A stretch of 63,886 nt of DNA, taken from positions 1 to 63,886 of the IMG/VR virus record IMGVR_UViG_3300050120_000442. One strand, 5' to 3'. Made by a program: the position numbers and the translations under genes. The notes under the pieces were generated by a model. The model had not been told where the DNA came from. It saw nothing but the letters and a program-made list of their open reading frames with translations, and searched no databases. This DNA comes from a virus. Each line of letters starts with the position of its first letter. Position 1 is the stretch's first letter. Shown here piece after piece: positions 18,526 through 63,886 of this stretch.

Positions 18526-19730
18526 CCCTTCCACTGTTCAACTTCACCGCCGACTGGGGCGCAGCCTCGCTCAAGATCACCCGCGAGTTCAAGACCGATA
18601 TCATCGTCAGCCGCTCAGGCCGCGAGCAGCGGCGCGCGCTGCGCGACACCCCGCGCAAGTCGGTGGAGTTTACGAGCACGCTATCCGGCGCAACCCTGCG
18701 GGCCTTCTACCGGACGATGGAGAAGTCGGGAGGCCAGACGGGCGTGCTGCCTGACTTCAGTCGCTCCCTGGATATCACCGCCCCGGCGTCGGCTGGCGGG
18801 TTTACTGTGGATGTTGGCTCGATCCCTGACTGGATCGCGGACGGCCTGAACGTTGTGTTGATGACGCTCGATGGTGTCACGGCCGAGACCCTGGTCATCA
18901 GTACGACCTCGACCACGTCGCTGACTTTCATGAGCGCCCTGGTAAATGCGTGGAGTGCACCGGCGGTCGTCCGGCCAGGGCTTACGGGTCGCCTCGCCGT
19001 GGACACGTCGGCTAGTCAGATCACGGATGGCGTCAACCAGGTCTCGGTCCACTTCGACGTCTCGCCGGGGAGCGAGCGGGGGATTTCAGATGGCGCCGCG
19101 GCGCTGATCTACGATAGCCGCGAGGTCTTCCTCCTGCAGCCTAATTGGGCGTCGGCGGTAACCCCTAGCTACCATAGTCCGTTCGAGGTTCTCGACTACG
19201 GGTTCGGCGTGGTGGGATACTATAACCCGATCACCTTCAACACGCGCATCAAGCAAGCCGTGTACCTGGCCAGGTCGCCCGTCGAGGCGCTGTTCATGGA
19301 GCAGTTCCACCAGCGTATGCGCGGGCAGCGTGGGGAGTTCTATGCGCCGACCTGGGAGAATGATCTCCCGCTGAAGGTCCCCGCCGTGGCGCTGGCTGCC
19401 AGCATCCGCGTGGATGGCCGCGACACCCACGACGCCTACACCGGCGACACGGTCTACGGCGCTATCGCGATCATCCTGAATGACGGTAGCCTGATCACCC
19501 GCCAAGTCGTGTCGCTGACACTGGTGTCGGACGGGATCGGCACCAACGACACCCTGGTCAACCTCGACGCGGAACTCGGCGTCGATATCACCGCTGCCAA
19601 CGTCAGCGCCATATCCTGGATGCCCGTCTGTCGCTTGGCCTCTGATACCCTGACAACCGAATGGTTGACGGATGGGGTTGCGCAGTTCCAATTAAATCAA
19701 CAAACGGTTGAGAATTTACCCCCGGAGTGA
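18522..19730 (+). CDS. Distal-tail-like minor tail protein
   Basis: A 402-residue protein immediately after the tape measure, with a GTGA overlap that fixes the GTG start at 18522. Its placement before a phage_BR0599/DUF2163-type hub protein is the same as that of the distal tail protein in alphaproteobacterial gene transfer agents and related phages. Recognisable elements are an N-terminal strand region (LPLFNFTADWG...LKITREFKTDI), RKSVEFTSTL and a C-terminal VEALFMEQFHQRMRGQRGEFYAPTWENDL, which resembles the end of such baseplate proteins. A perfect operator palindrome lies inside the 3' end (19697-19711). Confidence 0.6.
   Translation: MTLPLFNFTADWGAASLKITREFKTDIIVSRSGREQRRALRDTPRKSVEFTSTLSGATLRAFYRTMEKSGGQTGVLPDFSRSLDITAPASAGGFTVDVGSIPDWIADGLNVVLMTLDGVTAETLVISTTSTTSLTFMSALVNAWSAPAVVRPGLTGRLAVDTSASQITDGVNQVSVHFDVSPGSERGISDGAAALIYDSREVFLLQPNWASAVTPSYHSPFEVLDYGFGVVGYYNPITFNTRIKQAVYLARSPVEALFMEQFHQRMRGQRGEFYAPTWENDLPLKVPAVALAASIRVDGRDTHDAYTGDTVYGAIAIILNDGSLITRQVVSLTLVSDGIGTNDTLVNLDAELGVDITAANVSAISWMPVCRLASDTLTTEWLTDGVAQFQLNQQTVENLPPE
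19697..19711. promoter_or_regulatory. Operator palindrome TCAAC-N5-GTTGA (exact) at the 3' end of a tail gene
   Basis: Exact copy with spacer AAACG, within the last codons of the distal-tail-like gene and about 30 bases before the hub gene start. Confidence 0.62.
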
Positions 19731-29879: not shown

Positions 29880-29894
29880 TCAACCGTCTGTTGA
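29880..29894. promoter_or_regulatory. Operator palindrome TCAAC-N5-GTTGA (exact), lysis cassette leader
   Basis: Exact copy with spacer CGTCT, 18 bases upstream of the endolysin ATG; a TCAAC half-site lies at 29861-29865. It is placed to keep lysis genes silent in a lysogen. Confidence 0.72.
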
Positions 29895-29912
29895 TTTTAG
29901 ATCGGGACCTTG

Positions 29913-33238: not shown

Positions 33239-33364
33239 AACGATACTATTGCCCCCCTACAGGATTTAAGCGGAAAGACGAAAGTCTATAATCCGTAATA
33301 TAAAACATAATAACCGCAGCCATAATGAACACATAAGTTAATCATGTGTCAACCAGTGGTTGAG
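33239..33364. promoter_or_regulatory. AT-rich intergenic region with promoter and operator
   Basis: This gap between the methyltransferase stop and the small gene at 33238 is strikingly AT-rich for this genome. On the minus strand a perfect TTGACA (bases 33346-33351) overlaps the operator palindrome at 33349-33363. A TATAAT occurs on the plus strand near 33287. The segment TTAA-N7-TCAA (33338-33352) also resembles a CtrA box with one mismatch. The promoter direction is inferred as leftward. Confidence 0.5.
33349..33363. promoter_or_regulatory. Operator palindrome TCAAC-N5-GTTGA (exact)
   Basis: Exact copy with spacer CAGTG. It overlaps a TTGACA -35-like sequence on the minus strand and lies at the 3' end of the adenine methyltransferase gene. 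Confidence 0.7.
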
Positions 33365-35982: not shown

Positions 35983-36287
35983 CACTTGGCTCCGTCGCAA
36001 AATTGATCAGGGGTGACTGAGGACGAGAGGTCGCCAAGGCCGCCCGACCAGCCTGGAATATCGACCAGGTAAGTCTTGGTGACCGGATCTAGGCCGACGA
36101 CTGTCCCGTTGGCGCATGTTCGGACAGCAGAGGCGCGCGCCCACTTCTCCGCGCGCACCGCAGCCGGATCTGTTGTCGGCGCACAGGCCGCTAGGCTGGC
36201 CAACGCAGTTAGGCCCATCATGAGCGATATCGCGCTGCCCACGGCAAGCAGTAGTCCGACCATGCGCGGCGTGTTGATCGACGACAT
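35982..36287 (-). CDS. Small lipoprotein in the CtrA-like operon
   Basis: A 101-residue protein with a signal peptide and lipobox (LASLAAC), followed by a short mature part with two further cysteines (TCANGT and FCDGAK). The start and stop overlap the flanking genes (TGATG at both ends). Its function is unknown. An envelope protein expressed with DNA-binding regulators suggests a lysogenic-conversion or superinfection-exclusion role, but nothing in the sequence proves it. Confidence 0.6.
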   Translation of the reverse strand: MSSINTPRMVGLLLAVGSAISLMMGLTALASLAACAPTTDPAAVRAEKWARASAVRTCANGTVVGLDPVTKTYLVDIPGWSGGLGDLSSSVTPDQFCDGAK

Positions 36288-36571
36288 CACAGACCCCCGA
36301 TCGCGGCGAGATAGAGGTCGAGGATGGCCTCTTCCTCCAGTCGCTTCGCCTCGTCCTGCTTGCGCAGGCGCACGACCATACGAAGGATCTTGACGTCGAA
36401 CCCTTCTCCCTTGGCTTCGAGGTAGACTTCCTTGATGTCCGCCATCACGGCAGCCTTGTCCTCATCCAGGCGCTCGACGCGCTCGATGATGGTCTTGAGG
36501 CGCCCCTGGGCAGTGGAGTTCAGGACGTCGATCGAAGCGTCGTCGCCGCTGTTGTGTCCCATGCCAGCCAT
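36287..36571 (-). CDS. GapR-like DUF2312 nucleoid-associated protein
   Basis: A 94-residue protein matching DUF2312: IIERVERLDEDKAAVMADIK, then EVYLEAKGEGFDVKILRMVV and LRKQDEAKRLEEEAILDLYL. This is the conserved helical core of GapR, an alphaproteobacterial protein that encloses overtwisted, AT-rich DNA and affects replication and cell-cycle transcription. The N-terminus MGHNSG is typical of phage-borne copies. The ATG at 36571 overlaps the previous stop (TGATG); the longer open frame upstream is a shadow. Placement three genes from a CtrA-like gene and in the same transcript suggests a joint effect on host chromosome behaviour. Confidence 0.88.
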   Translation of the reverse strand: MAGMGHNSGDDASIDVLNSTAQGRLKTIIERVERLDEDKAAVMADIKEVYLEAKGEGFDVKILRMVVRLRKQDEAKRLEEEAILDLYLAAIGGL

Positions 36572-36930
36572 CAGGCGGCGACCTTCTGCACTCGACCAAC
36601 CCTGGGCTTCGGCGCCTTGTAGGGCTCGGCGAGAGCGGCGCGCAGCGCGACCCCGAACCGCTGGCTCGACGAAAGGTACTTCGCCGGCAGCTCCGACACC
36701 TGGCAGTGCCGCACCGCCTCGATCGTCAGCCTGCGCGACATCCGCTTGCGTTCGCCGCGGGTCATCCGAACGCTCTCGACCGATCCGTCCGGCTGGAGGA
36801 TATCGACGTCCTTCACATTCTTCGACGGACGGCGAACGCCGCCACGCGGGGCGTGCCCGGCCTTGTAGTCGCGACCCATGGCCTGGGCCTGAGCCCACGG
36901 AACGAAGAGAGTTTGAGCTGCGTTAAACAT
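36571..36930 (-). CDS. Unknown basic protein, first gene of the CtrA-like operon
   Basis: A 119-residue basic protein (pI clearly high; RGGVRRPSKNVKD, TRGERKRMSRRLTIEAV). No family is recognised; it could bind nucleic acid. ATG 36930 is chosen because GGAG lies six bases upstream; the longer frame would run into the operator. It is the promoter-proximal gene of the leftward operon, with a perfect operator palindrome only 21 bases upstream. Confidence 0.55.
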   Translation of the reverse strand: MFNAAQTLFVPWAQAQAMGRDYKAGHAPRGGVRRPSKNVKDVDILQPDGSVESVRMTRGERKRMSRRLTIEAVRHCQVSELPAKYLSSSQRFGVALRAALAEPYKAPKPRVGRVQKVAA

Positions 36931-36950: not shown

Positions 36951-36965
36951 TCAACTTTAGGTTGA
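36951..36965. promoter_or_regulatory. Operator palindrome TCAAC-N5-GTTGA (exact), CtrA-operon leader
   Basis: Exact copy with spacer TTTAG. It lies between an AT-rich -10-like CATAAT/TTAT stretch (minus strand, about 36966-36973) and the Shine-Dalgarno of the gene at 36930, where a bound repressor would block initiation or early elongation of the CtrA-like operon. Confidence 0.72.
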
Positions 36966-37747: not shown

Positions 37748-37990
37748 TCAGATGCCTTTCATGCCAGTGAGGTTGATGGTTAAGGTGCGCTTCGTGGTGC
37801 CTTCGCTTTTTCCTTCAACAGGGGTGGCGTTGAGGAGGGCGTTGAGGAGGGCGTTGAGGAGGGCGTTGATCGTGCCGCGTGTTTCAGGGCCGGCGGTGTA
37901 AAAGAACGCGGGCCAGAACGTCCCAAGATGCTCGATCAGCAAGAGTTCGTTCTCGTCGCTAAGCCCCTCAGGGGAGGTGTTGGAGGTCAT
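37748..37990 (-). CDS. Small protein containing a 12-bp tandem repeat
   Basis: An 80-residue protein starting at ATG 37990, which overlaps the upstream stop. Its centre is built from a DNA tandem repeat that encodes NALL three times in a row (INALLNALLNALLNA). The rest is unremarkable. The repeat makes the protein length prone to vary in steps of four residues. The longer frame reaching 38341 is a shadow of the next gene. Confidence 0.5.
   Translation of the reverse strand: MTSNTSPEGLSDENELLLIEHLGTFWPAFFYTAGPETRGTINALLNALLNALLNATPVEGKSEGTTKRTLTINLTGMKGI
37825..37868. repeat. 12-bp tandem repeat, about 3.5 copies
   Basis: The unit GGCGTTGAGGAG is repeated head-to-tail about three and a half times (plus-strand reading). 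It stays in frame in the gene at 37748-37990. It is a likely slippage hotspot. Confidence 0.8.
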
Positions 37991-40590: not shown

Positions 40591-40760
40591 GACCGCACCA
40601 GCCCGGCCATGCGTTCCTTCATGGCGATCTCGTTGCGGATGCGGTCGCGCCCGCCGAGCCGCTGATAGACGCCCTGCATGACCCGCATCTGGTCTTCGGT
40701 GTGCCGGCCCTCCATCAGGGCGAGCAGCGCCTTTTCCTCGGTCGCGTTGAGGGTCAGCAT
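40587..40760 (-). CDS. Small helical protein
   Basis: A 57-residue, entirely helical protein (ATEEKALLALMEGRHTEDQM) with a basic C-terminus. It is translationally coupled on both sides. Family unknown. Confidence 0.45.
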   Translation of the reverse strand: MLTLNATEEKALLALMEGRHTEDQMRVMQGVYQRLGGRDRIRNEIAMKERMAGLVRS

Positions 40761-41455
40761 GACGGCCGGTCCTGCTCGGTGTGCTCGATCTGAAGGCTGG
40801 ATTGGTGGTGGCTGGTGATGCACGCGACACCGGTGGAGTCCGTCCACTCGACGATGGCCATCCCAGCTTTCGTATGACCGCGGACCTCGCCTGACGGGCC
40901 ACCGTGCCAATGCCGAACCGTGTCGCCGACATCGAATTTGCGCGGGGTCTGCCAACTGCATGGCGTGCGGCCGTGGTAGCGGACGGCGTCGCTAAACAGC
41001 GACTTGGCGGCGGGCTCGGCCGCGACTTCCCGAGCACAAGCTTCCGCAAGCTTCGTGGCGTCGGACTTCTCGATGATGGGGCGGTGGATCAGCTTGAAGC
41101 GGGTAGACATCCAGCAATGCGGTCGGTCTTTTAGAACGACGTAGCCGTGCGCGTTGACATATTGGGTAAGAACTACGTGCTTATCGCCCGTCTCAAGAAG
41201 ACCGCCGCTGTCGTATGCATCGACGACTTGAACCATATCGCCGGGAAGAAACTCTCCCGGATTCTCGATCACCTCGTAGTGTTCGGCCGGACACCAACTG
41301 GAGCAACCCGCCTGATCCAGGTAGCGGATGCAGGGCGGTCCAGAGATGCGGTTGGCGACACTGGTCACCACCACGACATCGCCGATGTCGTGGCAGCCAG
41401 CGATGGGAAAGCAGATGCGGCGAACCGTATCGCCAGCCTTCAGCGGGCGTCCCAT
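40754..41455 (-). CDS. Two-module SH3-like phage protein
   Basis: A 233-residue protein made of several small beta-barrel-like modules: LKAGDTVRRICFP...GDVVVVTSVANR near the N-terminus, EFLPGDMVQVVDAYDSGG in the middle, and FDVGDTVRHWHGGPSGEVRG near the C-terminus. The repeated GD-[TM]-V pattern is that of KOW/DUF2158/SH3-like segments. This may be a triplicated small domain. Function unknown. ATG 41455 is fixed by a TGATG overlap with the upstream gene. Confidence 0.55.
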   Translation of the reverse strand: MGRPLKAGDTVRRICFPIAGCHDIGDVVVVTSVANRISGPPCIRYLDQAGCSSWCPAEHYEVIENPGEFLPGDMVQVVDAYDSGGLLETGDKHVVLTQYVNAHGYVVLKDRPHCWMSTRFKLIHRPIIEKSDATKLAEACAREVAAEPAAKSLFSDAVRYHGRTPCSWQTPRKFDVGDTVRHWHGGPSGEVRGHTKAGMAIVEWTDSTGVACITSHHQSSLQIEHTEQDRPSC

Positions 41456-41709
41456 CAGCGTGCGCCCGACTTGCCGACCTTGCGGCGGTTCTTGATGACG
41501 CTGGCACGGGCAGCGGCCGATGCACGCTTGTCGCTGAGCAGGATCGCCCGGCGTTGGCCTTGCCGAGACAGGACCGCCGCCGGCGGTCCATAGGTTGCGG
41601 TGTTCGCTTCGAGCTTGGCGATGTGGTTGAACCGAGTCCGATCGGCGCCAGTCTTCACGACTTCCGGATAGGTCTTCGTCTCGGTGTTGGTGGCCGTCGC
41701 GCTGGTCAT
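41455..41709 (-). CDS. Small basic unknown protein
   Basis: An 84-residue basic protein (QRRAILLSDKRASAAARASVIKN), the first gene of the leftward small-gene operon. Two perfect operator palindromes lie upstream (41725 and 41769), strongly suggesting repressor control of this operon. Family unknown. Confidence 0.5.
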   Translation of the reverse strand: MTSATATNTETKTYPEVVKTGADRTRFNHIAKLEANTATYGPPAAVLSRQGQRRAILLSDKRASAAARASVIKNRRKVGKSGAR

Positions 41710-41724
41710 CTGTGCCTCTGTCTC

Positions 41725-41739
41725 TCAACTGCGTGTTGA
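41725..41739. promoter_or_regulatory. Operator palindrome TCAAC-N5-GTTGA (exact)
   Basis: Exact copy with spacer TGCGT, 16 bases upstream of the ATG at 41709 (leftward). It is paired with a second exact copy 44 bases away. Confidence 0.72.
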
Positions 41740-41768: not shown

Positions 41769-41783
41769 TCAACCGAAAGTTGA
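41769..41783. promoter_or_regulatory. Operator palindrome TCAAC-N5-GTTGA (exact)
   Basis: Exact copy with spacer CGAAA, in the gap between the membrane protein gene at 41792 and the operon starting at 41709. A third TCAAC half-site is at 41792-41796. Confidence 0.72.
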
Positions 41784-44847: not shown

Positions 44848-45339
44848 TCAGTTGTAGAAAGTGGCGAGAGGGAAGGTTTCGCGAACGGTCGCCTTGGCAT
44901 CGGCGCGATCACTGGCGCGGAACGTCTGATCTAGGCGGCCGTCATCCGTCGCGGCCCAATAGAGCGGCTCGCCTTGGCCCCAATAGGCGCCGCAATCGTC
45001 ATAGCCGCCCGAGTCCAGCCGAACGCGGCGAAGGGTGACCTTGGGCCGATCATTCGTTTCGCGGGCTTGCGCTGCAGGGATAAGCGCCAGCGTGGCCTGG
45101 GCCTCTTCCTGAAAGTAATGAACGGCTTCGAACCAATAGCGGGCCTTCAGTCCGTCCGGGGTTTTCCGGTTTTCACGGTCGCGTTCCGCCTGGCGCGCGA
45201 ACGACTTGAGTTGCGCCGCCGCGACCTGCAGTTGCTCAACAGTCCGCGTATCAGGGGCGATAGACGGGCGACCCATCGGCGCCCCGCGTTTCCAATCGCC
45301 CATGTAGCCTTGCGGCGCGTTCGTCTCGAATGACGGCAT
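44848..45339 (-). CDS. Unknown protein
   Basis: A 163-residue protein. The first 20 residues are polar; about residues 30-100 form helices (LQVAAAQLKSFARQAERDRE), and the C-terminal half has strands (YDDCGAYWGQGEPLYWAATD). The upstream gap holds a perfect operator (45352-45366) whose minus-strand right half, GTTGAGGA, also provides the ribosome site. Family unknown. Confidence 0.5.
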   Translation of the reverse strand: MPSFETNAPQGYMGDWKRGAPMGRPSIAPDTRTVEQLQVAAAQLKSFARQAERDRENRKTPDGLKARYWFEAVHYFQEEAQATLALIPAAQARETNDRPKVTLRRVRLDSGGYDDCGAYWGQGEPLYWAATDDGRLDQTFRASDRADAKATVRETFPLATFYN

Positions 45340-45351
45340 TTGGGTTAGTCC

Positions 45352-45366
45352 TCAACTAAAGGTTGA
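45352..45366. promoter_or_regulatory. Operator palindrome TCAAC-N5-GTTGA (exact)
   Basis: Exact copy with spacer TAAAG, 13 bases upstream of the leftward ATG at 45339. Its minus-strand right half merges with the Shine-Dalgarno sequence GAGGA. Confidence 0.72.
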
Positions 45367-45776: not shown

Positions 45777-45825
45777 TTCCGTGTTCCCTTGTGTGTCGCC
45801 TATAAACGACAATTCGGTTTAGTAG

Positions 45826-45840
45826 TCAACCAAAAGTGGA
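45826..45840. promoter_or_regulatory. Operator palindrome, one mismatch
   Basis: TCAAC-CAAAA-GTGGA. It lies between the small genes at 45776 and 45849, next to an AT-rich TTATAAT-like segment. Confidence 0.6.
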
Positions 45841-46183: not shown

Positions 46184-46369
46184 TCAAACCTCCAGAACTT
46201 CGCACGGCATCGACGGATTTTGGCTTAAATAAAGAAAGCCATCACGAGGATTGAACAGTTTGCCCTTAAGTCCAGACTTGGACATTAGATAGCAATCGTC
46301 CAGCTTATGGGTGAATGCGTTGAACCGCATTACCATTTTATAGTTCTGAGTATTGGCTATATCGCCCAT
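46184..46369 (-). CDS. Small unknown protein
   Basis: A 61-residue protein (MGDIANTQNYKMVMRFNAFT) with two Cys. The long frame reaching 46627 is discarded because it covers another gene and the start at 46369 gives a normal composition. Family unknown. Confidence 0.45.
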   Translation of the reverse strand: MGDIANTQNYKMVMRFNAFTHKLDDCYLMSKSGLKGKLFNPRDGFLYLSQNPSMPCEVLEV

Positions 46370-46380
46370 TGTCTGATTCC

Positions 46381-46563
46381 CTAGCGATAGAAGGTCAAAA
46401 TGTTGCCGGAAACCTGGGCTAGGTGGTCTTCTGTGTGAACATACCCACCTAACGCGCCCGCGAGGACGTTTGCGAAGGTGAGCAAGGCCCGAATGCGGTA
46501 ACAGGTGCGGCCGAAGTCGTCGGTCATCGTGTCGGTGGTGATCAGCTCGTATTTCTTCGTCAT
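46381..46563 (-). CDS. Small unknown protein
   Basis: A 60-residue protein (KKYELITTDTMTDDFGRTCY) with a short hydrophobic middle. No family is recognised. Its AT-rich upstream gap contains one exact and one degenerate operator copy. Confidence 0.45.
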   Translation of the reverse strand: MTKKYELITTDTMTDDFGRTCYRIRALLTFANVLAGALGGYVHTEDHLAQVSGNILTFYR

Positions 46564-46623
46564 CTGGGCAAGTCCTCGTTGTGTGATTTCGTGTCGCCTT
46601 TGTGCGACTCTTTGGTTTAGTAG

Positions 46624-46638
46624 TCAACTAAACGTTGA
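46624..46638. promoter_or_regulatory. Operator palindrome TCAAC-N5-GTTGA (exact)
   Basis: Exact copy with spacer TAAAC, upstream of the leftward small-gene run (first gene starts at 46563). A degenerate second copy is at 46647-46661. Confidence 0.72.
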
Positions 46639-48292: not shown

Positions 48293-48307
48293 TCAACTCA
48301 GAGTTGA
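48293..48307. promoter_or_regulatory. Operator palindrome TCAAC-N5-GTTGA (exact)
   Basis: Exact copy with spacer TCAGA, located between the stop codon of the primase-helicase gene and its terminator. This is not a promoter position, which favours a stoperator-like role in elongation or termination. Confidence 0.7.
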
Positions 48308-48310
48308 CAA

Positions 48311-50755
48311 TTACTTCAGGCAGAGGGAGCCGGTTCTCCGGGAAACTCGCTGCTTCCCGTACTTCTCGAACCGCATGAATCCGTCCGAGTACCAGCCCTT
48401 GATCTTCTTCATCGCGCGCCCGAGCTGCTGGGATTGGATCTGACCGTAACCCGCGGCGTCCCTGCCCAAGCACGTCTCCCAGACCTCAAGCAGGCACGTC
48501 TCCTGCCGCAGGACCGGAAGGTCGCCTAGCACGTCGTCCAGGTCAGCCAAGCCAGTCTCATCGACGATGGGCCGGTCCAGCCAGGCTTCGATCTTACCGG
48601 CGAGGCCGTCTTCCGCAGACTCGACCCGGCGGTCCTCCTGGATACGCACGGCCTCACCGCTGGCGTCCTCGCCAGTCAGGTAGAGCGGCAGGTCGCCGTA
48701 TTCGCCGTGCTTCGCCCGCATCACGTCGTAGGCCGCCTTGGCTTCCGCCCAGACCTGGTCAACCTCGACCGCGAAGCCCGCGGTGTCGATCTCATCGACC
48801 TCGCATCGGATAGGCCAGAAGCGCCGGCCGCCGGTGTCGTCTCGCAGATATTCCTGGTCGTTGGTCGAGCCGAGCATGATGCACTGGCGGTCGTATTGCT
48901 GCGCCCGCCGGGCATAGGACAGGCGGACCTTGTCGCTCTGCCTGGAGATGAAGGCCTTGATCTGGCGCACGTCGGCGCGGCCGAAGCCGGACAGCTCCGG
49001 GATTTCCAAGATCCAGGAGCCTTGCATCGACTCGACCATCTGCTTCGGGTCGTGGAAGTCGCCGTCAAGCTCGCTGAACCAATCCTTGGCCAGGATGCGG
49101 ATGAAGGTGGACTTCCGCTTGCCCTGCAGACCTTCGAGGATGGTGGCGAAGTCGAACTTGTGGCCGGGCTTCATCACCCGAGCGACGCCGCCGACTAGCG
49201 TCATCCTGGCTACCGCGCGCGTATAGGGTGTGTCGTCGGCGCCGAGGAAGCGGATGAACAGGCTGTCGAGCCGCGGCACGCCATCCCAGGTCAGGCCGGA
49301 CAGGTACTCGCGGACGGGGTGGAAGGCGTTGTCGCGGGAGATGATGTCGATCGCGGCGTGCAGGTCCCGGTCGCTGATCTTGATGCCGTAGCCGCCCTGG
49401 CGGGTGGGCGCTTCCATCATGGCGCGGACGGCGTTGTCCTTGTCGTCGGTCCACAGGTCGCCGTTGACCTTGTCCTTCAAGACCCAGATAGGGCCTTCGA
49501 GTTGGACGGTGCCCTTGGGCGACTCCTTGCGGGCGATCTTCTTGCCCGGCATCCCGCGCTGGACCGACTCGCCGGTGAACTCGTTGAACGCCACGACGGT
49601 CTTCAGGCGCGGGTCGTTGCACACGATCAGCTTGACGTTGTGCAGGGTCGGCTTGATCGCCCCTTCCTCGTTGCGGTCGATCTTCGAGACCCATCCCAGG
49701 CTTGGCTTCGCCGGCTCGACCACCGCGACGGTGCCCAGGACGTCATCGTCGTCACCGGGCAGCTCGCCGAGCAGATCGTCGTCCGTCTCGATATTCTCGA
49801 ACAGGCCCACGCCGCTCAGCTCGTCGCGCAGGCGAGCGTCGGCCGCGGCCTTCAGGAGCATGGCGAACCGCATCGACTTGCCCGTGATGCGGAACGACTT
49901 CCACACCCGAACCAGGTCTTTCTCATCGAATTTGGCGGACTGCTTGGAGAACGCGCGCCACAGCCGCAGGCCGCCGTCGCCGCCCTCGAACTGGTGGTGG
50001 AGCGCCATGCCCACCGTCGTCCAGCCCTCGCGGTCCTCGCACCACTCGCCGAGCGGCAGGGCGGCCAGGGTCGCGTCGATCTCGTCGAGCGTGAGGTCCA
50101 TCGGCTGCTTGTGCAGATGGGCAGTGAGGTCGTTGTCGTCCTGGCCCTTGGAATCTTCCATGGCCAGGGTGGCGTGCCAGGACTTGACCCGATCGGCCGA
50201 CACGACAGGCCCGAGGCCCATCTCCACCAGGTCGAAGTCGAACTCCCGTGCCCAGAGGTAGGGGTTGCCTGTGACCGGGTGGATCGACGGCGGAAGCACG
50301 ACCTGCTTGCCGGTGCCGAACAGCTCGATCTCCCAGACCCAGTGCTTCTTGCCCTCGGTATCGTGAAAGAACTCGACGCTGTGCGCGACCTTCTTCGAGC
50401 GGAACGGCTCGGTGGTAAGGAAATAGAAGTGCCGGCTGTCGCCGCCGGACCCCGAGATCACGGTCGGCACGTCGGCATACTCTGGCAGGAAGTCGCGCAG
50501 TCGCGCCTTCGCCTGTTCGATCATCTCGGGCTTGCGGACGTCGAGGTCCAAGACCTGGAGGTACAGCTTTCCGATACGCGACGGCTCGCCCAGGCGCACG
50601 CCGACGTTATAGCCGGGGCGGTAGGCGCGCTTCAGGGCATCAAATGAGTATACGGGCTCAGATGCCCAAGCATTGGTGAAGGGCGCTTTGGACCGCTCGC
50701 GCAGCCAGTGGACGGCGAACCCCGCCTCCACAAGATGTTTTACGTCATCAAGCAA
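48311..50755 (-). CDS. Primase-polymerase / VirE-type helicase fusion
   Basis: An 814-residue replication protein. The N-terminal third (FAVHWLRERSKAPFTNAWA, VLDLDVRKPEMIEQAK, VISGSGGDSRHFYFL, WEIELFGTGKQVVLPPSIHP) is a bifunctional primase-polymerase domain with its metal-binding D-x-D and G-G-D/H elements. The C-terminal half is a virulence-associated E (PF05272) helicase: LEGLQGKRKSTFIRIL has the P-loop, followed by GSWILEIPELSGF and STNDQEYLRDDTGGRRFW. Between them a linker holds DDDLLGELPGDDDDVLG, and DLDDVLGDLP occurs near the end; both are internal copies of the recurrent acidic motif. The TTG at 50755 (GGGG upstream) is the best start I find; the 5' end is uncertain. It is alone in the leftward replication position. 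Confidence 0.88.
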   Translation of the reverse strand: MLDDVKHLVEAGFAVHWLRERSKAPFTNAWASEPVYSFDALKRAYRPGYNVGVRLGEPSRIGKLYLQVLDLDVRKPEMIEQAKARLRDFLPEYADVPTVISGSGGDSRHFYFLTTEPFRSKKVAHSVEFFHDTEGKKHWVWEIELFGTGKQVVLPPSIHPVTGNPYLWAREFDFDLVEMGLGPVVSADRVKSWHATLAMEDSKGQDDNDLTAHLHKQPMDLTLDEIDATLAALPLGEWCEDREGWTTVGMALHHQFEGGDGGLRLWRAFSKQSAKFDEKDLVRVWKSFRITGKSMRFAMLLKAAADARLRDELSGVGLFENIETDDDLLGELPGDDDDVLGTVAVVEPAKPSLGWVSKIDRNEEGAIKPTLHNVKLIVCNDPRLKTVVAFNEFTGESVQRGMPGKKIARKESPKGTVQLEGPIWVLKDKVNGDLWTDDKDNAVRAMMEAPTRQGGYGIKISDRDLHAAIDIISRDNAFHPVREYLSGLTWDGVPRLDSLFIRFLGADDTPYTRAVARMTLVGGVARVMKPGHKFDFATILEGLQGKRKSTFIRILAKDWFSELDGDFHDPKQMVESMQGSWILEIPELSGFGRADVRQIKAFISRQSDKVRLSYARRAQQYDRQCIMLGSTNDQEYLRDDTGGRRFWPIRCEVDEIDTAGFAVEVDQVWAEAKAAYDVMRAKHGEYGDLPLYLTGEDASGEAVRIQEDRRVESAEDGLAGKIEAWLDRPIVDETGLADLDDVLGDLPVLRQETCLLEVWETCLGRDAAGYGQIQSQQLGRAMKKIKGWYSDGFMRFEKYGKQRVSRRTGSLCLK

Positions 50756-50795
50756 CTTCGTCCCCGATCGATTGAGTTCGTGGAAGGACGAAATC

Positions 50796-51071
50796 TCAAC
50801 CCATGACGAAGGCGAACAACTCTTGCGGGACGAGCCTGCCGTTGGAGGCTTCGATAGTCTTGCGAGCACCGGCGACGCTCATCTTGCCGCTTCGCAGCCA
50901 CTTATAGACGCCCTCGTCAGACATCTCGATCGACTTGGCGAAGGCCTTGACGTCGAAAATGCCCTGGTTGGTCCGCAGGTCCGGGAAGCTGGCGTCGAGC
51001 AGCTTATAGAGCGGGTGGTTGTAGAACATGGCGGGGTCGGGGGTCTTAGCGGCGGCCGTGGCGTCGTTCAT
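50796..51071 (-). CDS. Small helix-turn-helix protein (Cro-like)
   Basis: A 91-residue protein whose second half (GIFDVKAFAKSIEMSDEGVY, then KWLRSGKMSVAGARKTIEAS) is a helix-turn-helix of the XRE/Cro kind. It lies at the divergence between leftward primase and rightward early genes, the classical place of an early regulator. The adjacent gap (51072-51237) carries degenerate operator copies and a promoter-like sequence. Whether it binds the same palindrome as the repressor at 60.5 kb is unknown. Confidence 0.65.
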   Translation of the reverse strand: MNDATAAAKTPDPAMFYNHPLYKLLDASFPDLRTNQGIFDVKAFAKSIEMSDEGVYKWLRSGKMSVAGARKTIEASNGRLVPQELFAFVMG

Positions 51072-53744: not shown

Positions 53745-54976
53745 TGGCTGCCCACGCCCGCGTTGGCCCGTCATCGCTCACCCGCGTCATCCTGTGCCGC
53801 GGCTCCGTGCGCGCGACGGACGGCCTGCCGAACCCCGACAGCGAGGCGTCGGCCGAGGGCACCGTCCTCCACGACATCGCCGCCGACTGTATGGAGAACG
53901 GCCTGGATGCCGAGGACTTCGTCGGTCAGACCTACAAGCAGGGCGGCTTTGAGTTCACGATCGGCTACGAGGACGATGAGGTCGATCCGCGTTGCATGAA
54001 CGACGCCATGGATTGGGCGCGTCAGCAGCCCGGTCTGCGGTTCGTCGAGCAGCGCGTCGAACTAGATCCCTGGATGCCGGACCAGTTCGGCACGCTCGAT
54101 CTCGGCTGGCTCTACGAAGACCTGCTGACCGTGTTCGACTGGAAGTTCGGCCGCGGCGTACTGGTCCGCGTCATGACCAACGACCAGCTCCGGGCCTACG
54201 CGCTGGGCCTGCTGCGCCTCATCCGGGCGCTCGGACACCCAGACCCTACGCGCATCAGGATCATCATCGAGCAGCCGCGCTGCCCCGGCGGCGCCCGGTA
54301 CTTCGAGCCCTGGGAAATCACGCTCGCCGAGCTGCTGGAATGGGGCGAGTTCATCAAGGGCGTGATGTTCGAGATCGACGATCCAGACGCGCCCCGACAT
54401 GCCGGCGAGAAGCCGTGCCGGTTCTGCACTGCCCAGAACAAGCCCGAGGGCTGTCCCGAGCACACGGCCTTTGAACTCGACCTGGTGGGCCTGAAGTTCT
54501 CCAACCTGGACGAAGACGACGAACCCTCGCTGCCGGACTACGACCTGCTGACGCCCGCCCGCCGCAGCTACATCGTCCGCCACAGGTCGATGTTCACGGC
54601 CTGGCTGGAGCGCCTCCATGCCAGCGCGCTTGAGGATGCCTTGATCGGCAACCCGACGCCAGGCCTGAAGGCGGTAGACGGTCAGCGCGGCAATCGGACC
54701 TACACCGACGCCGCGGCGGTCGAGGCCTTCCTCATCCCGATTCTCGGTGACAAAACTTTCAACCAAAAGTTGATTACACCACCAAAGGTTGAGGCTATAA
54801 TGATGCCCGGCAAAAAGAAGCCGGGTCACCCCGCCGCCTGGGCGGAACTGCAGGACTTCATCACCCAGAGCGACGGCAAACCCATCCTCGTCTCTGAGGA
54901 CGATCCTCGGCCCGCCAAACAGGCGGCCGTTGACCGGTTCGAGGACTTAGACGCCCCCGAGCTTTCCACCACCTGA
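53744..54976 (+). CDS. DUF2800 PD-(D/E)XK nuclease-like protein
   Basis: A 410-residue protein. The core reads LDPWMPDQFGTLDLGWLYED, then LTVFDWKFGRGVLV, then LRAYALGLLRL: the D ... DWK pattern of Cas4/RecB-type nucleases, and CRFCTAQNKPEGCPEH adds cysteines as in iron-sulfur-bearing members. DUF2800 proteins are standard partners of DUF2815 ssDNA-binding proteins in phages and are probably recombination nucleases. Start GTG 53744. The 3' third contains an AT-rich patch (54755-54805) with a perfect operator and a TATAAT, presumably an internal promoter for the following genes. Confidence 0.85.
   Translation: MAAHARVGPSSLTRVILCRGSVRATDGLPNPDSEASAEGTVLHDIAADCMENGLDAEDFVGQTYKQGGFEFTIGYEDDEVDPRCMNDAMDWARQQPGLRFVEQRVELDPWMPDQFGTLDLGWLYEDLLTVFDWKFGRGVLVRVMTNDQLRAYALGLLRLIRALGHPDPTRIRIIIEQPRCPGGARYFEPWEITLAELLEWGEFIKGVMFEIDDPDAPRHAGEKPCRFCTAQNKPEGCPEHTAFELDLVGLKFSNLDEDDEPSLPDYDLLTPARRSYIVRHRSMFTAWLERLHASALEDALIGNPTPGLKAVDGQRGNRTYTDAAAVEAFLIPILGDKTFNQKLITPPKVEAIMMPGKKKPGHPAAWAELQDFITQSDGKPILVSEDDPRPAKQAAVDRFEDLDAPELSTT
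54759..54801 (+). promoter_or_regulatory. Operator plus promoter-like sequence inside the DUF2800 gene
   Basis: An exact operator TCAAC-CAAAA-GTTGA (54759-54773), a second half-site ending GTTGA (54788-54792) and TATAAT at 54796-54801 lie within an AT-rich patch of a GC-rich reading frame. TTGATT to TATAAT spacing is 20 bases, longer than ideal. The likely target is the downstream ssDNA-binding protein gene at 55009. Confidence 0.55.
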
Positions 54977-55659: not shown

Positions 55660-55674
55660 TCAACCTTTAGTTGA
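55660..55674. promoter_or_regulatory. Operator palindrome TCAAC-N5-GTTGA (exact)
   Basis: Exact copy with spacer CTTTA. Its right end GTTGAGGA doubles as the Shine-Dalgarno of the exonuclease gene at 55682, so a bound protein or a fold in the RNA would affect initiation there. Confidence 0.72.
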
Positions 55675-58321: not shown

Positions 58322-58618
58322 GTGCGCGAACTCGTCGTCGAAACTGAAGGCTCAAAGCTTTTCACGTCCACGGGCTGGCGCGTTTACAAGGTCGTCTTTC
58401 CCGGCGTCCGCGGCGCCCCCGATCGGTGGATGCTGAAGTCAGGGATCTGGGCGCTCGTCGAATACAAGAAGTTCGGCGAGAAGCCGGACGCCCAGCAGCA
58501 GAAACGCCACAACGAACTGCGCGGCCAGGGCCAGCGCGTCTGGGTGATCGACAACATCCCCGCCATCTACGCGCTCCATGCGAAGCTGGAAGCCGAGATC
58601 GCAGCGCGTGCTCGATGA
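58322..58618 (+). CDS. VRR-NUC domain nuclease
   Basis: A 98-residue protein that is a single VRR-NUC domain: KVVFPGVRGAPDRWML, ALVEYKKFGEKPDAQQQKRH (E-x-K catalytic pair) and VWVIDNIPAIYAL. Structure-specific nucleases of this type sit next to SNF2 helicases and polymerases in phages. Start GTG 58322. Its end overlaps the helicase gene by 11 bases. Confidence 0.85.
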   Translation: MRELVVETEGSKLFTSTGWRVYKVVFPGVRGAPDRWMLKSGIWALVEYKKFGEKPDAQQQKRHNELRGQGQRVWVIDNIPAIYALHAKLEAEIAARAR

Positions 58619-60440
58619 TCTCATCCGCGTTGCCCTGGAGATCTGGCCGACCGACCTAAGACCAGTCAGGACGTGCTCCTGGGCGCGTGAGGACTTCCGC
58701 GACTATCAGGTGCAGCTCACCGACATGGTCAAGCTGTGCGTCCGGCCCGGCCCAAAGAAGAAACCCGGCATCATTCTGGCCCTGGAGCCGGGCGCCGGGA
58801 AGACGGCGATCGTGCTGACGGCCGCCCGCGATCTGCTCGACGAAGGCACGATCCGCAAGGCGCTCGTCACCGCCCCGCTCCTGGTCGCCAAGACCGTCTG
58901 GTCTGAAGAGATCGGCGAGTGGGAGCACCTGAAGGACACAACCTGGACGCTGATCCGCGCCGAGGACGATGACCCGGAGATCGTGGCGGCAGGGGAGGCG
59001 GCCTACGCCAAGGCCTTCGCCTTCCACTCGACCCTGTTCGAGGCCGAGGTCATGAACGAAGCCCGGCGCAACCCGAGCCAGGCCTCAGCGCGCAACATTG
59101 TCCGCGACCGCTGGGCGCGCGACGCATTCGACATGCTATCCGCCGAGGACCAGGCTCAGCTCAGGCGCCCGCGTTACAAGGGCGATGACCCGCTGCTGAT
59201 GCAGGCGGCGCTCGCGGCTGGCGCCCAGAAGATGCCGAAGGCCACCCCATCCGACCTGGCCAATCTCCACCGCATGGAGGCCGTCGCGACAGCCAAGGAG
59301 ACGCTCCTGCGTCGGCTAGCGGCCGAGCCGACCGAGATCCACATCATCAACAAAGAGGCCCTTCTCTGGCTCTGGAATCACTTCGGCGAAGGTAGCCGCT
59401 GGCCCTACGACATAATCATCGGCGACGACCTGCGCGAGTTCCGATCCGGCAAAGCGCGCTCGGCCGGCGGTGTCGCCGTCACCGCGAAGGGTAAGAAGGC
59501 CGCGGCGCCGCTGTCGCGCTGGGGCGTCCTGGCCGCGGCCCGCAAGCACGTCAAGGCCATGATCGAGTTGACGGGCACGCCGACGCCCAAGGGCCTGCAC
59601 AACCTCTGGGGGGTGGCCTACCTGGTGGACCTCGGCGAGCGCTTGGGCCTGAACCTCGAAGCGTTCATGCGGCGCTACTTCGACGTCAACCAGTACGATC
59701 GCTCGATCGAGCCTCGCGAGCACGCCTTCGCTTCCATTATCGGCAAGCTGAAGGACATCATGTTCAGCTTGGACCCGAAGGCGATCGGTGAGCTGCCTCC
59801 GTTCCTGCCGGTGCCAATCCGCGTCGAGCTGCCGGCCGATGTCCTCCAAGCCTACAAGACCTTCAGGAAGGAGCTGGTCTCCGAGGAATACGACGTCGAG
59901 GCCGTCAACGGCGGGGTCCTGCACGGCAAGCTTCTGCAGTTCGCCAACGGCTCGATGTACCAGGAGGATGGGAACGATATCCACATCCACGACCTTAAGA
60001 TCGAAGCTTTGAAGAACCTGGTGGAGGCCCTCGACGGCACGCCGCTGCTCGTCGCTTACACCTTCCAGTTCGACATCGAGCGAATCATGAAAGCGTTGCC
60101 GAAGGCCGTCCTGTTGACGCCGTCGAACGCGCTCGACTTCACGCGGCGCTGGAACAAGGATGAGATAGCAGTCGGGCTCGTTCACCGCGCATCGGCAGGT
60201 CACGGCCTGAACATGCAGAAGGGGACGGGTCATATGTGTGAGTACGGTCTGACCACAGACGCGGAGCTGTTCTTGCAGTTCAAAAAGCGGATATTGCGGT
60301 CAGGTCGAAAGACGTCGGTGATTAACCACATCATCATCGCCAAGGGCACGATCGACGAAGACGTTTATCCTATGTACCTCAACCCCCGGATAGAGAATCA
60401 GGAGCAAATTCTTGAGGCTCTCCGACTGACTCAGCGTTAA
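58608..60440 (+). CDS. SNF2-like superfamily 2 helicase
   Basis: A 610-residue helicase. YQVQLTDMVKL and LALEPGAGKTAIVLTAARDL are the Q-like and Walker A motifs, KALVTAPLLVAKTVW is Ia, IIIGDDLREFRSGKAR is motif II with DD in place of the usual DE, MIELTGTPTPKGLHNLW is motif III, and HRASAGHGLNMQKG is motif V/VI-like. An insertion of about 120 residues (residues 110-230) separates Ia and II. It commonly accompanies VRR-NUC and primase in phage replication modules. GTG 58608 overlaps the nuclease gene. Confidence 0.85.
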   Translation: MLDDLIRVALEIWPTDLRPVRTCSWAREDFRDYQVQLTDMVKLCVRPGPKKKPGIILALEPGAGKTAIVLTAARDLLDEGTIRKALVTAPLLVAKTVWSEEIGEWEHLKDTTWTLIRAEDDDPEIVAAGEAAYAKAFAFHSTLFEAEVMNEARRNPSQASARNIVRDRWARDAFDMLSAEDQAQLRRPRYKGDDPLLMQAALAAGAQKMPKATPSDLANLHRMEAVATAKETLLRRLAAEPTEIHIINKEALLWLWNHFGEGSRWPYDIIIGDDLREFRSGKARSAGGVAVTAKGKKAAAPLSRWGVLAAARKHVKAMIELTGTPTPKGLHNLWGVAYLVDLGERLGLNLEAFMRRYFDVNQYDRSIEPREHAFASIIGKLKDIMFSLDPKAIGELPPFLPVPIRVELPADVLQAYKTFRKELVSEEYDVEAVNGGVLHGKLLQFANGSMYQEDGNDIHIHDLKIEALKNLVEALDGTPLLVAYTFQFDIERIMKALPKAVLLTPSNALDFTRRWNKDEIAVGLVHRASAGHGLNMQKGTGHMCEYGLTTDAELFLQFKKRILRSGRKTSVINHIIIAKGTIDEDVYPMYLNPRIENQEQILEALRLTQR

Positions 60441-60469
60441 CCGTGTCAAGAGAAAAAGTTGATAATGAG

Positions 60470-60484
60470 TCAATTTTAGGTTGA
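60470..60484. promoter_or_regulatory. Operator palindrome, one mismatch
   Basis: TCAAT-TTTAG-GTTGA, 70 bases upstream of the repressor ATG. Confidence 0.62.
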
Positions 60485-60511
60485 CCAATTGTCGCACCAC
60501 AAATAAACATC

Positions 60512-60526
60512 TCAACAGAAAGTTGG
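60512..60526. promoter_or_regulatory. Operator palindrome, one mismatch
   Basis: TCAAC-AGAAA-GTTGG, 28 bases upstream of the repressor ATG. Confidence 0.62.
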
Positions 60527-60553
60527 CTCCCCTCAACTTTATGGAGTGATGAA

Positions 60554-61279
60554 ATGACCACCGAGCCCGAGGTTCCGCCTGCTGCTCGCCTGATCCGTGA
60601 GAACGGAAAGGAAGTCCGTGAGCCCGGCTTCGCCAAGCGTTTGCAACAGGCGATGGACAACAATCCCTACGTGCCAGACATGATGTATGGCCGGATGACC
60701 TGGGTCCGAAAGGAGCTAGAGAGCCGGTTTGGCGTCAAGGTCAGCCTGCAAGGTCTCGGCCGCTGGTATTATGGTGAGACCAAACCAAAGGTTGGAAATC
60801 TGGTTGCCCTGGCCAAGCTCCTGGACGTTGACTCGATCTGGCTGGCGCACGGTATTGAATCCGAGATGACGCCGCGCGAACAGAAAGTCCGTAACGCCCT
60901 GGTCGATGGCGCCGTCAATCTTGTCGCAGGCTTGATCCAGATGAACGGCGGCCACCCCGCCTTCCCCGAGTCTGACGATGAGCGGGCCGAGAAGAGTCGG
61001 ATTGATCTCTACGCGATCATCAAGGGCGCGCAGTACGCCTTCCATGTCTCCACGGCCCAGGAAGTCCCTGGCGCCCAGCGGTTCATCCTGCCAACCAACT
61101 ATATGGAGGCGTTTCAGATGGGTGTCGTGCTGACCGACATGGCCGGCATCACTTTGATCGAGATCACCGAAGACCTGGTCGAGCAGCGCGGCACGAAGAA
61201 GGGTCACGGCTTCGAGGTCATCCTGAACGAAGCGGAGATCGAGGCTGCCAAGATCCACAGCCTTCGCAACCGATTGTAG
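60554..61279 (+). CDS. XRE-type phage repressor, candidate operator-binding protein
   Basis: A 241-residue protein. After a 35-residue N-terminal arm, residues 40-100 (MTWVRKELESRFGVKVSLQG, then LGRWYYGETKPKVGNLVALA, then KLLDVDSIWLAHG) are an XRE helix-turn-helix. The C-terminal domain (RIDLYAIIKGAQYAFHVSTA to IHSLRNRL) is alpha/beta and lacks the Ser-Lys dyad of LexA/CI repressors, so induction by RecA cleavage is not expected. Flanked on both sides by copies of the palindrome, it is the best candidate for their cognate protein and for immunity; direct evidence is lacking. Confidence 0.7.
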   Translation: MTTEPEVPPAARLIRENGKEVREPGFAKRLQQAMDNNPYVPDMMYGRMTWVRKELESRFGVKVSLQGLGRWYYGETKPKVGNLVALAKLLDVDSIWLAHGIESEMTPREQKVRNALVDGAVNLVAGLIQMNGGHPAFPESDDERAEKSRIDLYAIIKGAQYAFHVSTAQEVPGAQRFILPTNYMEAFQMGVVLTDMAGITLIEITEDLVEQRGTKKGHGFEVILNEAEIEAAKIHSLRNRL

Positions 61280-61286
61280 GAAATAG

Positions 61287-61313
61287 TCAACTTTGGGTTG
61301 ACTAAAAGGTTGA
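61287..61313. promoter_or_regulatory. Overlapping operator pair downstream of the repressor
   Basis: Exact TCAAC-TTTGG-GTTGA (61287-61301) merges with a second right half TGACT-AAAAG-GTTGA (61299-61313). A TTGACT here precedes CTAGGG by 17 bases, a weak promoter-like arrangement for the MazG-like gene at 61356. Confidence 0.68.
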
Positions 61314-61355
61314 GTTTCATCTAGGGTCTTCAGAGAAATCTGGAGGCCCTTTTTC

Positions 61356-62452: not shown

Positions 62453-62667
62453 TCCTACCCACCTGGATTCCAAAGGTCGGCCGCCCGTTCAACCCGGATT
62501 ACGCTGAGACCTGGGAAGTCATGGATGACAACGCTAAGCGTTGGTCCTGGCTGTTCGATGCTGCTGTCGTGGTGGTCATGATCGGCGTGCTGCTGGTCTT
62601 CAGCCGATTAAGTCCTCATCATCTTCTGCCAGTCGATCGAGGAAGTCTGCCCACCATTGCATCATGA
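62449..62667 (+). CDS. Small single-span membrane protein
   Basis: A 72-residue protein with a hydrophobic helix (about residues 32-52, SWLFDAAVVVVMIGVLLVF). Its 3' end overlaps the 3' end of the convergent integrase gene by 68 bases. Family unknown; the ATGA overlap with the DUF2158-like gene supports expression. Confidence 0.5.
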   Translation: MILPTWIPKVGRPFNPDYAETWEVMDDNAKRWSWLFDAAVVVVMIGVLLVFSRLSPHHLLPVDRGSLPTIAS

Positions 62668-63799
62668 TCTTGCGGCCGGGTAGATACTCGGCAGCATTGT
62701 AGGCCTCGCGTACCTGGTTCTTGTCCTTGTGCGCGAGCTGCCGCTCGATCCAGTCGCGGTGAAACCCGTGCTCGTTGAGGACAGTGGACGCCATCCGCCG
62801 GAAGCCATGGCCGGTCATGTCTGTCGTCCCGTAGCCCATCCGCCGCAGCGCCGCGTTGATGGTGTTCTCGCTGATCGGCCGGGTGATCGAGCGCACCGCC
62901 GGGAACAGCAGTTCGCCCGGCGTCATCCCCATCGCCTCCCGGACGACCGCGACGGCCTGGCGCGAGAGCGGGACGAAGTGGGGGAGGGTCATCTTCATCC
63001 GCTCGGCTGACAGCGTCCAGATCCCGGCGTCCAGATCGAACTCCGACTTGGCGGCGAACCGCAGCTCCTTCGACCGCACGAACGTCAGCGCCACAAGCTG
63101 CAGGGCCGACCGCGTCGCGAAGTTGCCATCGTAGCCGCGCAGGGACCTCACCAGCGGCCCGATCCTTTTCGGATCGAGTATGGCGGCGTGGTGGGTGACC
63201 TTGGGTGCCAGGGTGGCTCCCCTGAGCGGCACGGTAGGATCGTGGATCGCCCTGGCCGTGCGAATCGCGAACCGGAACACGGCGCTGCAGGTCGAGCGCA
63301 GGCGAACCGCGCTTTCCAGCCGTCCGGTCTTCTCCACCCGTGCCAGGATCTCCAAAACTTCCGGCGGCATGATGTCGGCGACAGGTCTGTTGCCCAGCAT
63401 CGGGTAGGCCAGGCTCAGAAGCCAGGTGTGCTTCTTGATCGTGCCGGGGGTGGCGCCGTCCGCCGTCCGCCGCAGGAGCCATTCCTCGGCGACGACCTTG
63501 AAGGTGTTCGCTGAGCTGACGGCCGCCGTGATCTTGGCCAGGCGCTTGACGACGGACGGGTCCTGGCCACCGGCCAGTGTCTTGCGAGCAGTCTCGCGCG
63601 CCGCCCGCGCCGCGCCCAGGCCAACCAACGGGTAGGCGCCGAGGGTCAGCTTTTTCTGCTTCCCGCTGAACCGGTAGGCGAGATTCCAGGCCTTCGACCC
63701 GTTGGTCCGCACCAGTAGGTAGAGTCCGAAGGCGTCGCTGAGCTTGTAGTCCTTCGCCCGAGCCTTGGCCGATCGGACCTCTAATTCGGTGAGCGCCAT
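62600..63799 (-). CDS. Tyrosine integrase, P4-like
   Basis: A 399-residue site-specific recombinase. The N-terminal DUF4102-type arm-binding domain (MALTELEVRSAKARAKDYKL, SDAFGLYLLV, then YRFSGKQKKLTLGAYPLV) is followed by a core-binding region and the catalytic domain: TFVRSKELRFAAKSEFDL has the first Arg, GHGFRRMASTVLNEHG the H-x-x-R box, LAHKDKNQVREAYNAAEYL the last His and the Tyr nucleophile. It catalyses integration at an att site I cannot locate here. ATG 63799 is preferred; the open frame reaches the window edge. The C-terminus DDEDLIG is a further copy of the recurrent tail. Confidence 0.93.
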   Translation of the reverse strand: MALTELEVRSAKARAKDYKLSDAFGLYLLVRTNGSKAWNLAYRFSGKQKKLTLGAYPLVGLGAARAARETARKTLAGGQDPSVVKRLAKITAAVSSANTFKVVAEEWLLRRTADGATPGTIKKHTWLLSLAYPMLGNRPVADIMPPEVLEILARVEKTGRLESAVRLRSTCSAVFRFAIRTARAIHDPTVPLRGATLAPKVTHHAAILDPKRIGPLVRSLRGYDGNFATRSALQLVALTFVRSKELRFAAKSEFDLDAGIWTLSAERMKMTLPHFVPLSRQAVAVVREAMGMTPGELLFPAVRSITRPISENTINAALRRMGYGTTDMTGHGFRRMASTVLNEHGFHRDWIERQLAHKDKNQVREAYNAAEYLPGRKIMMQWWADFLDRLAEDDEDLIG

Positions 63800-63886
63800 G
63801 TGCCCTCTGTTGGCCTGGAGAGGGTAGCTCTGGCAGAAGGCCACCCGAAAGGCCAACAAAAACGGTGGCTCTATACGGAACTTCAT

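Follow-up and report, generated by a model that had tools for sequence, protein, structure and literature searches.

The window, by which we mean the whole stretch of DNA analysed, is a 63,886-base (63.9 kb) IMG/VR virus record. Judging from its sequence, it very probably represents a temperate siphophage of the Casjensviridae (Chi/Nazgul-like). The siphophage type is seen in the terminase, portal, head protease and capsid proteins, and the terminase has its best match within the Casjensviridae, with 57% identity to Achromobacter phage AchV4. A temperate lifestyle is very probable because a tyrosine integrase is present; its ORF matches Phage_integrase, Phage_int_M and Arm-DNA-bind_3, each over the Pfam cut-off, as well as the integrase family phrog_1 (E=4e-60). 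Structural genes run rightward from 1 to 33 kb, a leftward block occupies 51 to 33 kb, and replication genes run rightward from 51 to 60.4 kb, ending with a helicase gene that is followed by the repressor gene. The resulting order of helicase (58578-60440), repressor (60554-61279), integrase (62600-63886) and terminase (2301-4388) agrees with that of relatives, in which an HTH regulator likewise lies between the helicase and the integrase or terminase. The features of the locus, together with the small regulatory gene discussed below, are as follows.

48311-50869, minus strand, primase-polymerase/VapE-like helicase, adjoining the Cro-like gene
50796-51071, minus strand, small Cro-like HTH protein whose gene diverges from the rightward early genes
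60470-60484, no strand, operator-like palindrome with one mismatch, TCAATttttagGTTGA, 70 bp upstream of the repressor start
60512-60526, no strand, operator-like palindrome with one mismatch, 28 bp upstream of the repressor start
60554-61279, plus strand, immunity-repressor-type gene of 241 aa, with an XRE HTH at about residues 24-100, a linker helix at 107-130 and a C-terminal alpha/beta domain at 134-235
61287-61301, no strand, exact operator palindrome flanked by the repressor stop codon and a terminator-like hairpin, with a half-site at 61309-61313
61323-61350, plus strand, intrinsic-terminator-like hairpin 3' of the repressor gene (one found against 1.3 expected in shuffles, weak alone)
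62600-63886, minus strand, tyrosine integrase, 428-aa ORF up to the window end, whose true start is probably an internal ATG

The preliminary description had recognised an XRE-type gene at this locus, and a 241-aa ORF of that type is indeed present on the plus strand. Taken alone, the window protein matches HTH_3 with E=5.7e-4 and 20.3 bits, under the Pfam cut-off of 23, and HTH_3 is matched by all 16 of 16 repressor homologues, with a best E of 1e-9. Profile matches of the N-terminal part in the PDB include TP901-1 CI and P22 C2, and the protein matches the transcriptional regulator family phrog_2967 with E=2.2e-17. By tblastn the repressor reaches Casjensviridae relatives with E down to 1e-44, and there is a weak likeness to the CI of 933W-like phages (E=3e-3). 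Although a single-sequence query against viral_contigs returned no relatives, an alignment query did find them. Homologues are 22-42% identical overall and occupy the same place in many Casjensviridae, where the orthologues show 36-42% identity. The gene is orthologous to the HTH regulator between the helicase and the integrase or terminase in AchV4 (AchV4_0078), Klebsiella phage YMC16, Rhodobacter RcD-cluster phages (gene 19) and others; KPNN133_007 and SS2019XI GP080 are further named orthologues.

Some homologues lie outside recognisable phages. A Komagataeibacter plasmid (L014, 18599-20690), which has a Cro-like gene nearby, and Phenylobacterium sp. J426 (L087) carry copies with no recognisable phage genes in the vicinity, and these are possibly remnants or domesticated copies. 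The Marinobacter plasmid phiTHAF39 (L015) is a circular 56-kb extrachromosomal phage of Casjensviridae type that carries both the repressor and CAAC-N5-GTTG sites, which suggests that some members of the phage family persist as phage-plasmids.

Around the repressor gene of the window, both near-exact upstream copies that had been described were recovered (60470-60484 and 60512-60526, each with one mismatch), along with the extra half-sites, which are isolated ones at 60458 and 60533. An overlapping exact pair had also been described downstream, at 61287-61313. The copy at 61287-61301 is exact; the second, at 61299-61313 (TGACTaaaagGTTGA), has three mismatches and only its right half is intact. 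The description of the locus as the densest cluster is true only in a loose sense: no 915-bp window has more than its three sites of at most one mismatch, which lie within 832 bp, but the exact copies that stand closest together are 41725/41769, and half-sites are equally or more numerous at other places.

Across the window, TCAAC-N5-GTTGA is the best de novo palindrome. It occurs in 13 exact copies against 0.025 expected from Markov shuffles or 0.148 from the half-site product, and 12 more copies have one mismatch, where about one is expected. Besides the exact copy 3' of the repressor gene, the exact copies, none with a strand, are these.

7049-7063, inside the head protease/scaffold gene
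19697-19711, 32 bp 5' of the ORF at 19743, overlapping the end of the preceding ORF
29880-29894, 16 bp 5' of the ORF at 29910
33349-33363, intergenic, at the left-hand end of the leftward block
36951-36965, 53 bp upstream of the leftward ORF 36287-36898
41725-41739, at the start of the leftward ORF 40754-41728
41769-41783, 41 bp upstream of the leftward ORF 40754-41728
45352-45366, 13 bp upstream of the leftward ORF 44848-45339
46624-46638, at the start of the leftward ORF 46184-46627
48293-48307, after the primase stop codon and ahead of a terminator-like hairpin (48287-48262, minus strand)
54759-54773, within the gene for the DUF2800/Cas4-like exonuclease, some 200 bp from its 3' end
55660-55674, over the ribosome-binding region of an exonuclease gene whose likely start ATG is at about 55682

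For the exonuclease near 55682, the Pfam domain starts at residue 68 of the longer ORF. At two leftward gene starts (45797-45840 and 46595-46638) the palindrome is followed by the same longer block, TTGACTACTAAACC...GTCG...GGCGACAC, which may be a repeated promoter with a hairpin. Separately, GTTGA recurs every 12 bases inside an ORF at 37829-37869 (37829, 37841, 37853 and 37865), forming a short tandem repeat that has no connection with the operator.

To ask which protein the palindrome accompanies, sites were counted over whole records of relatives, a few of which are near-duplicates, the repressor-bearing set being limited to records of at least 45 kb. At least two exact copies were present in 13 of 23 repressor-bearing records (up to 19 copies) and in 0 of 11 records lacking a detectable repressor. 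The association gives P=0.0018 by Fisher's test and P=0.024 by a rank test, values that take no account of shared ancestry. It also holds between phages of a single host genus: Achromobacter phage AchV4, with the repressor, has 9 sites and phiAxp-2, with none, has 1, and Klebsiella phage YMC16, with the repressor, has 6 whereas MAG26fr, with none, has 0. By this contrast, the distribution of the palindrome does not track the host. De novo searches also rank it first or among the leading palindromes in AchV4, YMC16, Pseudomonas phage SS2019XI (as CAAC-N5-GTTG) and phiTHAF39, whose repressors are 25-38% identical to that of the window. In 11 phages the repressor gene has an exact copy 15-153 bp ahead of its start, and exact copies also lie just upstream of the repressor in Sphingomonas and Aquamicrobium contig prophages (L088 and L090).

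Fewer than two exact copies were found in 10 of the 23 repressor-bearing records; among these, the word is shifted or looser in RcCWillis and the SS2019XI group. In the Rhodobacter phage RcCWillis, TCAAC-N5-GTTGA is absent and TCAC-N7-GTGA, a word that likewise spans 15 bp but departs at the +/-4 position, is present in 15 copies against 1.35 expected. One copy is located 5' of the repressor and another 5' of the ribonucleotide reductase gene, and both positions recur in RcGingersnap. Such a word is what a shift in the specificity of the bound protein would be expected to leave behind. In the stretches read of DSS3-P1 and of the records G013, G021, G022 and G024, no alternative palindrome was convincing.

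Other repeated words were seen along the way. Within 58979-65295 of RcCWillis, AGTCAAC-N-GTTGACT lies about 23-24 bp upstream of a TTTCAC...GTGAAA operator at four of five places and 37 bp upstream at the fifth; the pair has the look of a repeated early promoter unit, with a -35 element first and then an operator covering the -10 box. The first 50 kb of the repressor-less BcepNazgul contains a strong dispersed palindrome of its own, GAAGT-N-ACTTC, in 15 copies against 0.16 expected, beside which G021 shows a weak AAAGT-N-ACTTT signal.

The proposal that this gene encodes the palindrome-binding protein is thus well supported at the level of sequence comparison by the co-occurrence, the autoregulatory placement and the parallel operator shift. 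Counting against it are the repressor-bearing records with fewer than two exact copies and two further observations: both sites 5' of the window's own repressor are imperfect, and the recognition helix reads SLQGLGRWYY in the window and SHEAVRKWFA in AchV4 despite the same operator.

We consider it likely, with a probability of about 0.82, that the protein encoded here serves a temperate Casjensviridae phage as its immunity (lysogeny) repressor, acting as a dimer on genome-wide TCAAC-N5-GTTGA sites with autoregulation and stoperator-like silencing. The gene family, the temperate context, the statistics and placement of the sites, their co-occurrence with the repressor and the operator shift in RcCWillis are the observations on which this reading is built. 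In the mechanism that we infer, a repressor dimer would read the palindromes through its HTH at about 20 copies over the whole genome. Sites around the gene and at its own promoter would allow the repressor to regulate its own synthesis, sites over early promoters would shut these off, and sites a few bases 5' of gene starts within long operons would serve as stoperator-like road-blocks to transcription. The prophage would thereby be silenced, as would a superinfecting phage with matching sites. RcD-cluster phages, which carry an orthologue, form apparent lysogens that are superinfection-resistant and release particles in stationary phase (PMC8601537). Counting against this reading, AchV4 behaved lytically in the laboratory and yielded no stable lysogens (PMC7996906).

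The position of the sites relative to genes bears on how they might act. Sites of at most one mismatch fall between -20 and 80 bp from the next gene start in 15 of 25 cases in AchV4 (13% expected, P=5e-8) and in 14 of 23 in YMC16 (12% expected, P=2e-8). In the window, where a hand-curated gene set was used, an ORF start follows most exact sites at a distance of 0-55 bp, two lie between a stop codon and a terminator-like hairpin (3' of the repressor gene and 3' of the primase), and sites are present in the late block and the early blocks alike. The placement at gene starts and before terminators is no more than suggestive of a stop to transcription elongation. The DUF2800 exonuclease genes of the window and AchV4 both hold a site some 200-250 bp short of their ends, and that of YMC16 holds one with a single mismatch there; this recurrence could be explained by conservation of the protein.

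The alternative that survives best accepts the operators as real but has the repressor active at few promoters only, with most dispersed sites doing something else, for example forming a decoy pool that sets the repressor level, or serving DNA bridging or compaction. That the palindrome, unlike mycobacteriophage stoperators, has no orientation would suit this, as would the sites inside genes at 7049 and 54759. However, the strong clustering just 5' of gene starts in the two annotated relatives fits an effect on transcription, and so do the two exact sites between a stop codon and a hairpin; we regard the decoy or bridging role as a real but distinctly less probable possibility.

A second alternative makes the small HTH protein at 50796-51071 the chief binder of the palindromes; it would control the lytic genes, with the XRE gene as just one of its targets. 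This small protein matches no Pfam or PHROG family over the cut-off. Its gene, about 9.5 kb from the repressor gene, corresponds in position to AH2 gp77, annotated as Cro, and the protein is better read as Cro-like. It is divergent from the rightward early operon, a similar gene stands at the same place in many relatives, and degenerate palindrome sites occur in the divergent gap. The Cro and CI proteins of lambdoid phages share common operators, and the Cro-like protein may likewise bind some of the sites here. But Phobos, whose Cro-like protein is very similar to that of YMC16 and which has no repressor, contains only one site, and the repeated palindrome is absent from it and from other relatives with a gene in the Cro position but no repressor. 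Conversely, SS2019XI has a very different small HTH protein, about 12% identical to that of the window, yet keeps the palindrome, with 12 CAAC-N5-GTTG sites. Because of Phobos and SS2019XI, the palindrome does not follow the Cro-like protein, which is disfavoured as the main binder and improbable in that role. Still less credible is a host-factor site or promoter element unrelated to the repressor: the half-site does contain TTGAC, like a -35 box, and some leftward sites could put it at the -35 position, but most exact sites have no good -10 box 16-18 nt from the half-site, 12 of the 13 showing 3-4 mismatches there, and the -35 role was rejected. Many sites are also too near start codons for it, and phages of alpha-, beta- and gammaproteobacteria carry the motif, whereas those that infect the same host genera but have no repressor do not.

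The repressor we favour differs from the classical ones in its C-terminal half. It had been described as lacking a LexA/CI-like Ser-Lys peptidase, and this was borne out: a search of the 16 homologues at E up to 10 gave no match to the S24 peptidase domain, and the predicted fold is different. The structure prediction that had been suggested for this domain was made with AF2 on the 16-sequence alignment (pLDDT 89), and a single-sequence model (pLDDT 47) was discarded. In the model the C-terminal part resembles PD-(D/E)XK nucleases, not S24. Foldseek against the PDB matched it to I-Ssp6803I (E=6.4e-4, probability 1.00) and also to archaeal Hjc resolvases, EcoRV and PvuII; E ranges from 6.4e-4 to 1e-2 for I-Ssp6803I and Hjc, with TM-scores that are moderate (0.5-0.56 by target). 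In a viral structure library the matches were a PD(D/E)XK endonuclease and a Holliday junction resolvase. D151 of the catalytic motif is present in 11 of 16 homologues, whereas the E-x-K position reads H/N/F-x-S/A/V and carries lysine in 0 of 16. A search for PDB sequence matches to the domain gave none, and an hhalign comparison with the VRR-NUC and DUF2800 nucleases that the phages themselves encode was negative, as were its controls. The domain thus resembles a catalytically dead nuclease-like fold, a statement of predicted fold rather than of family membership, and probably mediates dimerisation or senses a signal. A literature search run without the exact family name, which does not imply absence, found no published phage repressor with a nuclease-like C-terminal domain.

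Because a self-cleavage domain is lacking, induction probably proceeds by an antirepressor, through the C-terminal domain sensing a ligand or structure, or by competition from the Cro-like protein. Nothing seen here points to the host cell-cycle signals that the preliminary description had proposed, and that induction must use these or the small HTH protein at 50796 is not established. An antirepressor, a DNA-sensing C-terminal domain and simple spontaneous switching are equally open as candidates. A more specific version holds that the degenerate PD-(D/E)XK-fold domain is itself the switch, with branched, broken or single-stranded DNA releasing the repressor independently of SOS. The structural matches to nucleases and resolvases from Foldseek and the viral library and the degenerate, lysine-free E-x-K position are in keeping with it, and WYL-domain regulators such as DriD are switched by ssDNA (PMC12340889). 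On the other side, neither hhalign nor the PDB sequence search gives sequence-level support for the nuclease fold, the TM-scores are moderate and the fold may serve dimerisation only; we think such a switch improbable. Slightly more doubtful still is the broadest proposal, in which a whole proteobacterial phage family would use symmetric-site stoperators, the prophage being silenced at about 20 sites by an XRE protein whose dead nuclease domain is an inducer sensor reading DNA structures, so that induction would be independent of RecA-promoted cleavage.

Several known systems resemble the proposed immunity repressor in part. Lambda CI and LexA share an XRE-type HTH with it, but the window protein, unlike them, has no S24 Ser-Lys peptidase, its Cro-like gene lies at the distance given above and its operators are genome-wide. 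The C1 repressor of phage P1 has many operators dispersed over the genome, as in the window, but these are asymmetric and of 17 bp. In cluster A mycobacteriophages such as L5 and Bxb1, one repressor acts on up to about 30 stoperators, most of them not promoter-associated, with an autoregulatory site at the repressor gene (PMC6550527). Sites of the L5 type span 13 bp, lack symmetry and mostly share one orientation; the structure of a cluster A repressor shows a monomer using two domains (PMC9283540). Genome-wide sites and an autoregulatory site are common to both systems, whereas the 10 fixed positions of the window sites are perfectly palindromic and so have no orientation, and the relatives examined here have proteobacterial hosts. 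MrpR of Bacillus phage SPbeta is a master repressor acting on repeated elements across the prophage, with the fold of a DNA enzyme whose activity is gone (PMC10516654); that fold is of the tyrosine-recombinase type, whereas here an XRE HTH would be the reader and an enzyme-like fold is predicted only. Closest are the HTH regulators of Casjensviridae lysogeny modules, which are like that of the window, stand after the helicase and are accompanied by an integrase in most; AchV4 and YMC16 share the palindrome as well. Neither PMC7996906 nor PMC8601537 mentions operators or palindromes, and a genome-wide operator set linked to the repressor was found neither there nor in literature searches. The gene family is already known, annotated as HTH regulator or repressor; the new variant part is the dispersed symmetric sites and the unusual C-terminal domain.

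Dispersed stoperator-type immunity is best known from actinobacteriophages, and a comparable design seems to extend across a phage family of alpha-, beta- and gammaproteobacteria. The family supplies natural deletion controls, in lytic relatives with neither the repressor nor the sites, and at least one natural shift in operator specificity, whereby repressor-operator co-evolution becomes directly testable. Homo- and heteroimmunity groups are predicted among isolates such as AchV4, YMC16 and the RcD cluster, and the unusual C-terminal domain poses a concrete question, that of prophage induction without self-cleavage.
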